Below are positions 15,315-17,477 of a stretch of 64,000 nucleotides of DNA, one piece after another. Below the pieces are notes generated by a model. That model was not told where the DNA came from, made no database searches, and saw only the letters and a program-made list of their open reading frames with translations. Position numbers and translations under genes: made by a program. Origin of the DNA: Sagittula sp. P11 (GTDB lineage: Bacteria; Pseudomonadota; Alphaproteobacteria; Rhodobacterales; Rhodobacteraceae); NCBI RefSeq assembly GCF_002814095.1, contig NZ_CP021913.1, forward strand, positions 1,860,001 through 1,924,000. Reading direction: 5' to 3'. Numbering within the stretch: position 1 is the first letter of the stretch; every line of letters begins with the position of its first letter.

Positions 15315-16070
15315 ATGACCCTTGCCCGTGCCACCGAACAGAACGCCCCCACCGCCGCCGACGACCGGCTGATCGTGGCGCTGGACGTCCCGAACGTGCT
15401 GGAGGGCATCGACCTCGTGCAGAAGCTGGGGGATGCGGTGTCCTTCTACAAGATCGGGCTCGGGATGCTGACCGGCGGCGGGCTGGCGCTGGCCAACGAG
15501 CTGAAGGCCGAGCACGGCAAGCGCATCTTCCTCGACATGAAGCTGTTCGACATCGGCGCCACGATCGAGGCGGCGGTGCGGGGCATCGCGCAGTTCGACC
15601 TCGACTTCCTCACGGTGCACGGCGACCCCTACGTGGTGCGCGCCGCCAAGGAGGGCGCCGCCGGGTCGGACCTGAAGATCCTTGCTGTCACGGTGCTGAC
15701 CTCGCTGGACCGCGACGACCTCGATTCCGCGCTCATCAAGGATGGCGTCATCCCGGACCTCGTGACCGAACGGGCCGGGCGCGCCTTCGACGCCGGAGCG
15801 GACGGGGTGATCTGTTCGCCGAACGAGGCGGCGTTGGTCCGCGCCCTGCCGGAGGCCGATGGCCGCCTGATCGTCACGCCGGGCGTGCGCCCCTTCGGGG
15901 CCGACGTGGGCGACCAGAAACGCATCGCAACCCCGGCCCAGGCGATTCGCGACGGCGCGGATCACATCGTGGTCGGCCGCCCAGTGCACCGCGCCGCATC
16001 GCCCCGGAAGGCCGCCGAGGCCATCGTGGCCGAGCTCCGCTCGCCCCAGGCGCAGCGCGCGAACTCCTGA
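15315..16070 (+). CDS. pyrF: Orotidine 5'-phosphate decarboxylase
   Basis: A 251-residue TIM-barrel enzyme that decarboxylates OMP to UMP, the last step of pyrimidine synthesis. The signature FLDMKLFDIGAT (about 74-85) carries the catalytic Asp-Lys-Asp set, and the C-terminal TPGVRPFGADVGDQKR and DHIVVGRPVHRA stretches bind the phosphate. The N-terminal 17 residues are an extra tail. AGGAG-like sequence (CAGGAG) precedes the ATG. Divergent from clpB across 272 bases. Confidence 0.95.
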   Translation: MTLARATEQNAPTAADDRLIVALDVPNVLEGIDLVQKLGDAVSFYKIGLGMLTGGGLALANELKAEHGKRIFLDMKLFDIGATIEAAVRGIAQFDLDFLTVHGDPYVVRAAKEGAAGSDLKILAVTVLTSLDRDDLDSALIKDGVIPDLVTERAGRAFDAGADGVICSPNEAALVRALPEADGRLIVTPGVRPFGADVGDQKRIATPAQAIRDGADHIVVGRPVHRAASPRKAAEAIVAELRSPQAQRANS

Positions 16071-16097
16071 TCATTTCAATCACGCCCTGAAACATGT

Positions 16098-16141
16098 GAG
16101 CCGCCTAGATCCAGCAGGATTCAGGCGGCTCTATCGCTATA
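16098..16141 (+). terminator. Hairpin after pyrF
   Basis: Outer arms GAGCCGCCT and AGGCGGCTC plus inner GATCC/GGATT give a long stem 28 bases after the pyrF stop. The following bases are T-poor, so this is a probable but weak terminator. Confidence 0.5.
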
Positions 16142-16226
16142 TCTGGTCGATTTTGGAACCGATTCGCGAAGGTTCGCGTTTTTCCACCGTAAGAAGTGCA
16201 GAAATGCCGGTCTGACGGAGATAAAC

Positions 16227-16454
16227 GTGGCTCAGGTTCGAAATAATTTGACACGTGGTCGTGATGCAACGGCTGTCGTCCGGTCAACGATGGGCAAAAA
16301 GGCGCCGAATCCTGCGCTGACTTCCGCTTACACATTGGAGTCATGGGGAAATTCCATACCTGATTCCGTGATGAAACTTATCCACAACTTCTTACGTTAT
16401 GTATACACAGGGGCCGAAAGTGGGGCCCGTTACAAAAAAGGGTTGAGGTTATGA
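16227..16454 (+). CDS. Candidate 75-residue ORF before the small conserved-looking ORF
   Basis: A possible small gene with a GTG start; GGAG lies six bases upstream. It ends in an ATGA overlap with the next ORF, which argues for translation. Against it, the stretch is clearly lower in G+C than the window average, I recognise no family, and it contains a perfect TTATCCACA (16378-16386) and a near match GTATACACA (16401-16409), so it may be a regulatory leader rather than a gene. Confidence 0.3.
   Translation: MAQVRNNLTRGRDATAVVRSTMGKKAPNPALTSAYTLESWGNSIPDSVMKLIHNFLRYVYTGAESGARYKKGLRL
16378..16409 (+). promoter_or_regulatory. DnaA-box-like pair
   Basis: TTATCCACA (16378-16386) is a perfect DnaA box and GTATACACA (16401-16409) differs from the consensus at the first base. 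With only two boxes this looks like a possible regulatory site, not an origin. Confidence 0.35.
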
Positions 16455-16729
16455 GCGATATGACACCCCGAATTCACGACGTCCGTTACAACGCCGCCGA
16501 ACAGTGCTTCGAGGCCCTTGTGACCCTTCACACGCCGGGTGGACGGGTGCGCGTGGCCAGCACCTTCTCCGCGCCGATGACCACCGATTTCGAGGCCGCG
16601 TCGCGCGGACTGCTGAACACGGCACTGATGGCGATGGGCGACCGCGCCGCGCTGAAGTCGCGCGAGTTGCGCAAGCCGATCGTTCCGCCGCGCAGCCCGA
16701 TGGCGTCGCACATGCCGCACGCCGCCTGA
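16451..16729 (+). CDS. Hypothetical 92-residue protein upstream of tandem sRNAs
   Basis: A small cytoplasmic protein I cannot assign. The first 60 residues look folded (IHDVRYNAAEQCFEALVTLH with a beta-type alternation, then FEAASRGLLNTALMAMGDRAALKSRELR helix), and the tail PIVPPRSPMASHMPHAA is probably disordered. A weak GAGG precedes the ATG. Sixteen bases after its stop begins the first of two homologous structured RNAs, so the RNAs may be cut from its 3' untranslated region, much as the CcsR RNAs of R. sphaeroides follow a small ORF. Confidence 0.65.
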   Translation: MSDMTPRIHDVRYNAAEQCFEALVTLHTPGGRVRVASTFSAPMTTDFEAASRGLLNTALMAMGDRAALKSRELRKPIVPPRSPMASHMPHAA

Positions 16730-16744
16730 TCCGTTTCCGTCTTT

Positions 16745-16896
16745 CGTCGCGCTGTCGATGGCATCCGGCGCGACGCCTGCTGCCTGCCGCTCATACGCCT
16801 GTATGAGCCTGCCTGACCGAACCCCTTCTGTCCCTCGGGGAGCGGTCTTACTGCCGGGGCGCCGCACGCTGCCTTTCGCGGCCCCCGGCCTTTTCT
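16745..16896 (+). ncRNA. Structured small RNA, copy 1 of a tandem pair
   Basis: About 152 bases with four stems in order: an 8-bp stem (16745-16752/16768-16775), an 8-bp stem GCTCATAC-GCCT-GTATGAGC (16789-16808), a stem GACCG/CGGTC plus CCCC/GGGG (16815-16847) whose loop holds CTGTCCC, and an intrinsic terminator GCCGGGG.../...CCCCGGC (16853-16889) followed by CTTTTCT. Copy 2, about 176 bases downstream, has the same order, the same loops and compensating changes in the stems. The T tract sets the strand as plus. No promoter is visible between it and the preceding ORF, so processing from that mRNA is likely. I do not recognise the family. Confidence 0.7.
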
Positions 16897-16919
16897 CCCC
16901 CAGGGGGAGACCCATTCCC

Positions 16920-17071
16920 GCCGCGCCTTCCGTCCCCGGCATTGCGCGGCACGATCTGCCTGCAGCCCATGCGCCTGTATGGGCCTGCCTTCCGGGATCT
17001 CTACTGTCCCCTTGAGACCCGGACAAACTGCCGGGGCGTGCCAATTCAGGCACGTCCCGGTTTTTTCTTTT
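16920..17071 (+). ncRNA. Structured small RNA, copy 2 of a tandem pair
   Basis: About 152 bases, homologous to copy 1. Stems: GCCGCGC/GCGCGGC (16920-16926/16944-16950), GCCCATGC-GCCT-GTATGGGC (16965-16984), TCCGGG-A-TCTC/GAGACCCGGA (16991-17023) with CTGTCCC in the loop, and the terminator CCGGGGCGTGCC/GGCACGTCCCGG (17031-17060) followed by TTTTTTCTTTT. Shared single-stranded blocks are CTGCCTGC before stem 2, CTGCCT after it and ACTGCCGGGGCG before the terminator. The terminator overlaps the 3' end of the opposing NUDIX gene. Short C/U-rich single-stranded blocks suggest base pairing with G-rich target sites, but that is inference. Confidence 0.72.
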
Positions 17072-17477
17072 CCGAAGCAAGGTAGCTGGCGAGGATGCCG
17101 CGGAACGGCCAGACGGCATCCGGGGCGTTGACCAAATCCATGGGCGGTATGGCGGCCCATTCCAACCCTTCGCCACCGAAACGCACCTCGTCCACCAGAC
17201 CGGCCGGGCCGTGGGCCGCGAAGAACCAGCTTCTGCGCCCGCCTGCGTCGCGCAGGTGCACCCAGCGCAGCAGGTCGGGGTCGAGGGTCAGGCCCAGCTC
17301 TTCGCGGGTTTCGCGCAGGACGCAGGCGACGGGGTCCTCGTCGCCCTCTGCCACCCCGCCGGGGAAGTCCAGCATCCCCGGCCACGCCAGCCCCGGCGCG
17401 AAGTCGCGGCGCAGGACCAGAAGGTCGTCCCCGGCGAACAGCATCACCTTCGCGCCATAGAACCGGCGGCTATTCAT
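17046..17477 (-). CDS. NUDIX hydrolase
   Basis: A 143-residue NUDIX protein that hydrolyses a nucleoside diphosphate linked to another moiety. The Nudix box is complete: GGVAEGDEDPVACVLRETRE then ELG (about 40-62). Substrate cannot be read. It starts inside the NfeD gene (eight-base overlap), so it is the last gene of the SPFH-NfeD-NUDIX operon. Its stop codon lies within the terminator of the opposing small RNA. Confidence 0.9.
   Translation of the reverse strand: MNSRRFYGAKVMLFAGDDLLVLRRDFAPGLAWPGMLDFPGGVAEGDEDPVACVLRETREELGLTLDPDLLRWVHLRDAGGRRSWFFAAHGPAGLVDEVRFGGEGLEWAAIPPMDLVNAPDAVWPFRGILASYLASEKKKPGRA

Follow-up and report, generated by a model that had tools for sequence, protein, structure and literature searches.

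Tandem copies of a conserved structured RNA, probably the 3' end of a small gene's transcript and likely linked to the general stress response, in Rhodobacteraceae

The window, i.e., the whole stretch of 64,000 nucleotides analyzed here from a genome of 5.58 Mb in 7 contigs, carries two homologous structured units on the + strand, at 16745-16894 and 16920-17071, with four helices each. Are these units two independent small RNA (sRNA) genes, as a first-pass annotation supposed, or do they belong to the transcript of the gene in front of them? On the same strand they are preceded by pyrF (15315-16070) and by an open reading frame for a 92-amino-acid protein (16451-16729). Downstream lies a convergent Nudix gene on the - strand, whose end overlaps the second terminator. 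Both units share one layout: helix 1 is followed by helix 2, which closes the loop GCCT, then by helix 3, whose loop contains CTGTCCC, and finally by a terminator stem. The features of the locus are as follows.

16373-16398, + strand: EcfG-type promoter-like site GAAAC-N18-GTT (-35, -10), 78 bases before the ATG at 16451
16451-16729, + strand: 92-amino-acid gene of an unnamed small-protein family (YNxAxxxFEA), proposed host mRNA of the RNAs (open reading frame, profile search, codon-position pattern)
16745-16775, + strand: helix 1 of unit 1 (lone-unit and joint fold)
16789-16808, + strand: helix 2 of unit 1, GCTCATAC-GCCT-GTATGAGC (sequence, fold, covariation)
16815-16847, + strand: helix 3 of unit 1, with CTGTCCC in the loop at 16828-16834 (fold, loop count, covariation)
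16853-16894, + strand: terminator-like stem of unit 1 and short TTTT (fold; not called by the terminator scan)
about 16894-16910, + strand: small hairpin between the units (joint fold; absent from the first-pass description)
16920-16950, + strand: helix 1 of unit 2 (seen in the joint fold; in the minimum-free-energy fold of the unit alone this stretch pairs otherwise)
16965-16984, + strand: helix 2 of unit 2, GCCCATGC-GCCT-GTATGGGC (sequence, fold, covariation)
16991-17023, + strand: helix 3 of unit 2, with CTGTCCC in the loop at 17004-17010 (fold, covariation)
17030-17071, + strand: intrinsic terminator of unit 2, a 13-bp stem followed by TTTTTTCTTTT (scan, fold; overlaps the end of the convergent Nudix gene)

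Two homologous tandem units about 176 bases apart had been described before, and the units indeed form ungapped direct repeats with spacings of 176 and 177. The common helix order, the loops GCCT and CTGTCCC and the block CTGCCTGC were likewise found as described. A further block, ACTGCCGGGGCG, had been taken for single-stranded, but GCCGGGGCG within it forms the 5' arm of the terminator stem. Folded as single strands, unit 1 and unit 2 reach z scores of -3.90 and -5.76, and none of 200 shuffles equaled either. The opposite strand likewise folds well (z of -3.07 and -3.48, with 1/200 and 0/200 shuffles as good). As to the paired stem changes quoted between the two copies, the T-A to C-G replacements in helix 2 and in helix 1 are two-sided, and the A-T to G-T change in helix 2 turned out to be one-sided.

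The 92-amino-acid protein has no match in Pfam or NCBIfam, and its family has no relative in the PDB. Its codon-position pattern is typical of a real gene, with 15, 8 and 45 differences at positions 1, 2 and 3 over 90 codons in the comparison with genome G002 of the same genus. A profile search found the small protein in at least 76 of 394 genomes of the bacterial family, a lower bound because 14 candidates were scored per genome. A class-wide sample yielded it in 2/240 genomes, both of Rhodobacteraceae, and its named relatives are Rhodobacteraceae as well. The 76 genomes gave 82 placed matches, and 3' flanks were taken from 60 genomes and the rest of the genus; flanks of 15 genomes, mostly with weak matches and also including the strong match G044, were left out.

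To these flanks we applied a covariance model, R1, built from three sequences. All four genomes examined in the genus carry the second-unit sequence; G003 has both units, and G001 and G002 have one clear unit each. Units were found behind the same gene in other genera, too (G005 with 54.6 bits, G338 with 36.3, G348 with 34.9, G209 with 32.4 and G401 with 29.5). R1 returned 34 matches at E ≤ 10 over 63 sources. In 26 of them, the strand is right and the position falls within -40 to +330 relative to the stop of the gene, and the other 8 are on the wrong strand or at another place; without the three training sequences, 23 of 31 matches have the right strand and this position. Among the 59 loci from other genera, 20 show a match at this place at E ≤ 10 and 12 at E ≤ 0.01, never with more than one unit per locus. 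Used alone and genome-wide, R1 matched 18 of 394 genomes at E ≤ 0.01, belonging to few genera, and several of these matches lie at other places.

Among the 10 best R1 matches, a set that includes the model's own three sequences, 22 of 30 base pairs show a two-sided change. Pairing is kept in 98.2% of the cells of this alignment, compared to 80.2% in shuffles and at most 46% for a slid structure; the alignment was fitted to the structure, which favors the pairing score, and the covariation result is matched by the slid control and by changes that can be read directly from the sequence. From genus to genus, nearly the whole of helix 3 is replaced, and its loop mostly holds GTCCC in the nine sequences compared (9/9). 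Selection on RNA structure, which the first-pass annotation had proposed and made dependent on paired stem changes in related genomes, is thus borne out, since homologues in related genomes do carry such changes, and we consider it nearly certain that the units are structured RNA. G+C-rich repeats that fold by chance, or a dispersed REP-like repeat, would fit the good folding of this G+C-rich sequence on both strands. We judge such an origin very improbable in view of the covariation, of the site shared across genera and of the whole-genome R1 search, in which the window's two copies are the only matches at E ≤ 0.01 in their own genome.

The statement that no known family has this layout also stands, as Rfam 15 gave no match at gathering score in the window, nor in twelve relatives. 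When the threshold was relaxed for the Rfam search, five matches appeared, all far below their gathering scores, four on the - strand and one, an IRES fragment, on the + strand. The searched part of the published literature, with supplementary tables and most subscription papers outside its reach, holds no description of this RNA. Most likely, the tandem units are regulatory RNAs of an undescribed family.

The supposition of two independent sRNA genes with their own promoters draws on the completeness of each unit, with four helices and a T tract. A consensus scan for sigma-70-like promoters found none in 16000-17200, the motif G[GA]AAC-N16-19-GTT occurs on the + strand of 16000-17100 only before the small gene (16155 and 16373), and the linkage of the units to this gene is conserved, so that two free-standing genes appear improbable. 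The units are rather placed as 3'UTR-derived sRNAs are: they lie 3' of an open reading frame on the same strand, a terminator stands at their end, and consensus scans revealed no promoter of their own. Each unit had been said to end in a G+C stem and a T tract on the + strand only. The T tracts are confined to the + strand; the terminator scan of 16000-17200 called two sites (1.2 in shuffles), and of the two units it called only the second (17030-17061, then TTTTTTCTTTT), the first stem being followed by just TTTT. The terminator of unit 1 may therefore be leaky. What remains of two sRNAs with a terminator each is a weak first and a strong second terminator; together, the two units resemble a single 3'UTR behind a conserved small gene, and by the model loci outside the genus have at most one unit. 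Probably, the units are the 3' end of the transcript of the 92-amino-acid gene.

The Nudix gene, on the - strand, has its stop codon (17046-17048) within the terminator of unit 2, so that this terminator and the last codons of the gene share DNA. The canonical GGAAC-N18-GTT string at 16155-16180, 3' of pyrF, overlaps a small hairpin followed by T and is more likely the pyrF terminator than a promoter.

Which signal would drive such a transcript? Of 59 regions upstream of the small gene, 34 contain the motif G[GA]AAC-N16-19-GTT (0.8 expected), as do 27 of 40 in a second set of named loci (0.7 expected). The motif is close to the EcfG motif described in Sphingomonas, GGAAC-N17-20-GTT (PMC6599016), a consensus defined in that genus; the window's own site reads GAAAC and is weaker than the canonical GGAAC. 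NepR, the EcfG anti-sigma factor, is encoded in 51 of the 63 examined genomes with the small gene, and the promoter motif is present at 35/49 NepR-positive loci versus 0/11 NepR-negative loci (p = 1.3e-5). With the strict GGAAC the numbers are 25/49 versus 0/11 (p = 0.0016). The motif count covers 59 of 60 regions, leaving out G003, which is included in the NepR test; all promoter counts are without L081, L082 and L112, the three of 63 loci in which no start was found, and L080, with a short upstream stretch, and L071, with the chosen start inside the gene, were counted as motif-negative. Expected counts and shuffles for the upstream motif, as well as for the loop and stem tests below, come from first-order Markov samples, and the p-values are optimistic because the genera are not independent. 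In the window's own genome, one locus about 88 kb from the tandem units combines PhyR, NepR, an ECF sigma factor and two facing canonical sites. A link of the RNA units to the general stress response is therefore likely. For R. sphaeroides, PhyR, an EcfG and a NepR-like protein with a specialized role have been described (PMC5830050). Control by RpoH was considered and rejected, since the conserved element is GGAAC, unlike the published RpoH -35 element TTG (PMC3441632).

Upstream of the small gene, the 9-mer TTATCCACA occurs in 17 of 59 regions (0.02 expected); in the window it is found at 16378-16386, right after GAAAC. We take this sequence to be DnaA-box-like. It shows no association with NepR (p = 0.72).

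Counting k-mers over 60 of 63 loci (G002, G003 and L079 left out), we found TGTCCC within 150 nt 3' of the gene's stop in 27 of 60 loci (3.5 expected), and 22 of 29 sites lie in a hairpin loop (3.2 expected). A crude but stricter gap-free stem scorer supported 13 of 32 TGTCCC sites at p ≤ 0.05 and missed this level at the sites of the window (0.20), G003 (0.34) and G401 (0.09); for 70-nt windows around TGTCCC the mean folding z was only -0.6. The second set, of which 11 of 40 loci are also in the first and several species belong to one genus (eight of them Limimaricola), has TGTCCC in 22 of 40 loci (2.5 expected), in a loop at 15 of 22 (2.9 expected) and, in 17 of 22, with a run of at least four T that follows after 15-75 nt. 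TGTCCC is present in Loktanella, Wenxinia, Yoonia and Marivivens, and all eight Limimaricola loci are without it. The longer string TGCCTYTGTCCC, which joins two C-rich blocks that stand apart in the window, is present in 9 of the 40 loci (0.01 expected). The loop is thus common but not universal: in the stretch tested, 33 of 60 loci of the first set and 18 of 40 of the second, i.e., about half, have no TGTCCC.

This absence in about half of the loci, the location of 26 of 34 model matches right behind the gene and the terminator at the end of the units would also be expected if the helices were a structured 3'UTR with a double terminator that guards the mRNA of the small gene against decay or tunes its termination, with no trans-acting RNA at all. 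In line with this main rival, a target test based on AGGGACAG singles out no target: the pattern AGGGACAG-N3-9-ATG occurs at 58 sites in 4 genomes versus 22 for the reversed pattern, an excess to be expected from purine-rich ribosome-binding sites in any case. A stem for stability or termination, however, needs no kept loop, whereas UGUCCC, where present, persists on replaced stems, and TGCCTYTGTCCC recurs as well. We consider a purely structural 3'UTR unlikely, although it is the most serious of the rival explanations.

A kept loop on changing stems is a classic pattern of a protein-binding site. The constant loop could accordingly act in cis or be bound by an RNA-binding protein, for which the product of the small gene is a candidate, and serve autoregulation or sequestration. 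The predicted fold of the small protein, three strands and a helix with a mean pLDDT of 74, is weakly like RNA- or ribosome-binding proteins such as YfiA/HPF and a dsRBD. In the Foldseek search, the top matches included Rv1738 (best E of 0.09), Rv2632c and YfiA/HPF, and none reached E ≤ 0.001, so the resemblance is not significant. Rv1738, Rv2632c and YfiA/HPF are dormancy or ribosome-hibernation proteins. Against a protein site speaks further that C-rich loops are a usual pairing site of alphaproteobacterial sRNAs, as described for GsrN (PMC5869019), and this explanation, too, seems rather improbable to us.

We thus favor, with a probability of roughly 0.62, that the 3'UTR of a small general-stress gene in the window contains a conserved structured RNA in two tandem copies, which would act as 3'UTR-borne sRNAs in the manner of Caulobacter GsrN. 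This reading starts from what is observed: the structure and the loop are conserved, the units follow the small gene, and the promoter motif is associated with NepR. The transcription, processing, Hfq binding, base pairing and targets of the RNAs are predicted by analogy with GsrN and with UdsC of R. sphaeroides. EcfG-RNA polymerase would start at about 16405 and read through the 92-amino-acid gene, stopping partially at the first terminator and fully at the second. One or two sRNAs of about 115-150 nt would next be cut out of the 3'UTR by an endonuclease, and their helices 2 and 3 with the flanking stretches would display the C-rich CUGCCU and CUGUCCC. In trans, these C-rich sequences would base-pair with G-rich stretches close to the starts of mRNAs and alter translation or stability, as GsrN does. 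A trans-acting role of the units is plausible.

GsrN is described as an EcfG-dependent sRNA of Caulobacter with its own promoter, with homologues usually near the EcfG locus and BLAST hits confined to Caulobacteraceae (PMC5869019). Further GsrN-like RNAs were predicted in Rhizobium, Sinorhizobium, Brucella, Agrobacterium, Rhodopseudomonas and Bradyrhizobium; the section on GsrN-like RNAs of this 2018 survey of genomes with transcriptome data names none from Rhodobacterales, and the word 'rhodobacter' is absent from the main text of the paper (PMC5869019). Compared by description, the units resemble GsrN in the predicted EcfG-type control, the exposed C-rich loop (CUGUCCC), the intrinsic terminator and the proposed pairing with G-rich mRNA. 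They differ in being tandem units in a 3'UTR, about 88 kb from nepR and with two C-rich blocks, whereas GsrN has its own promoter; an EcfG-type promoter directly before the units, as in GsrN, was not found in 16000-17100. If the proposal holds, the RNA family would be new and its way of working already known, and the family would fill the Rhodobacterales gap among GsrN-like general-stress sRNAs in a large, ecologically important group. It would also offer a defined loop sequence that is open to testing and tied to a conserved uncharacterized small protein.

An analogue by origin is UdsC of Rhodobacter sphaeroides, an sRNA of 67 nt described as coming from the 3'UTR of a small hypothetical gene (host protein RSP_7527, mRNA of about 300 nt), with a promoter assigned to RpoHII (PMC9779115, PMC8625941, PMC6238624). 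Both cases would share the 3'UTR origin, a small hypothetical host gene, an alternative sigma factor and the mRNA terminator as end; by description UdsC is set apart by its RpoHII promoter and its length, the units here having an EcfG-type motif. UdsC is treated here as an analogue and not as a homologue. Five genomes of the presumed Cereibacter genus gave no convincing homologue of the window's small protein: two of the five match it at E ≤ 0.1, both partially and with a best E of 0.05. The assignment to Cereibacter is presumed from the best DNA match, 86% over 2.5 kb to the C. sphaeroides plasmid pA.

The CcsR1-4 or Cuckoo RNAs of the same bacterial family are tandem homologous stem-loops with C-rich motifs behind a small gene, features in which the units resemble them. 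Their loops carry the motif CCUCCUCCC, and their host protein is a DUF1127 protein. CCUCCUCCC is absent from 16700-17100, and the 92-amino-acid protein is not a DUF1127 protein, since it has no Pfam match. AbcR1 and AbcR2 of rhizobia, described as two tandem sRNAs alike in sequence and structure, share with the units the tandem arrangement and this likeness between copies; they belong to another bacterial group and another context, and the units have no Rfam match at gathering scores.

A wider proposal, which we put forward tentatively and hold to be rather doubtful, is a two-part effector of the general stress response that is peculiar to the bacterial family. One EcfG transcript would yield both a small ribosome- or RNA-binding protein with an HPF/Rv1738-like fold and a CUGCCU/CUGUCCC 'address' sRNA, the counterpart of GsrN, duplicated in the window's lineage. 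If true, translation would be slowed globally and re-targeted specifically at once.

With one weak and one strong terminator, the tandem copies would represent a natural case of sRNA duplication. In G001 (L079), an extra hairpin with CTGTCCC in its loop lies 5' of the single unit. G002 (L004, near 1394) has a hairpin 5' of its single unit, at the place expected for unit 1, and CTGTCCTCC lies partly in the loop of this hairpin and partly next to it. Both extra hairpins are perhaps remnants of a first copy. Among the four genomes of the genus, G002 is also the only one with photosynthetic reaction-center genes (contig C15).
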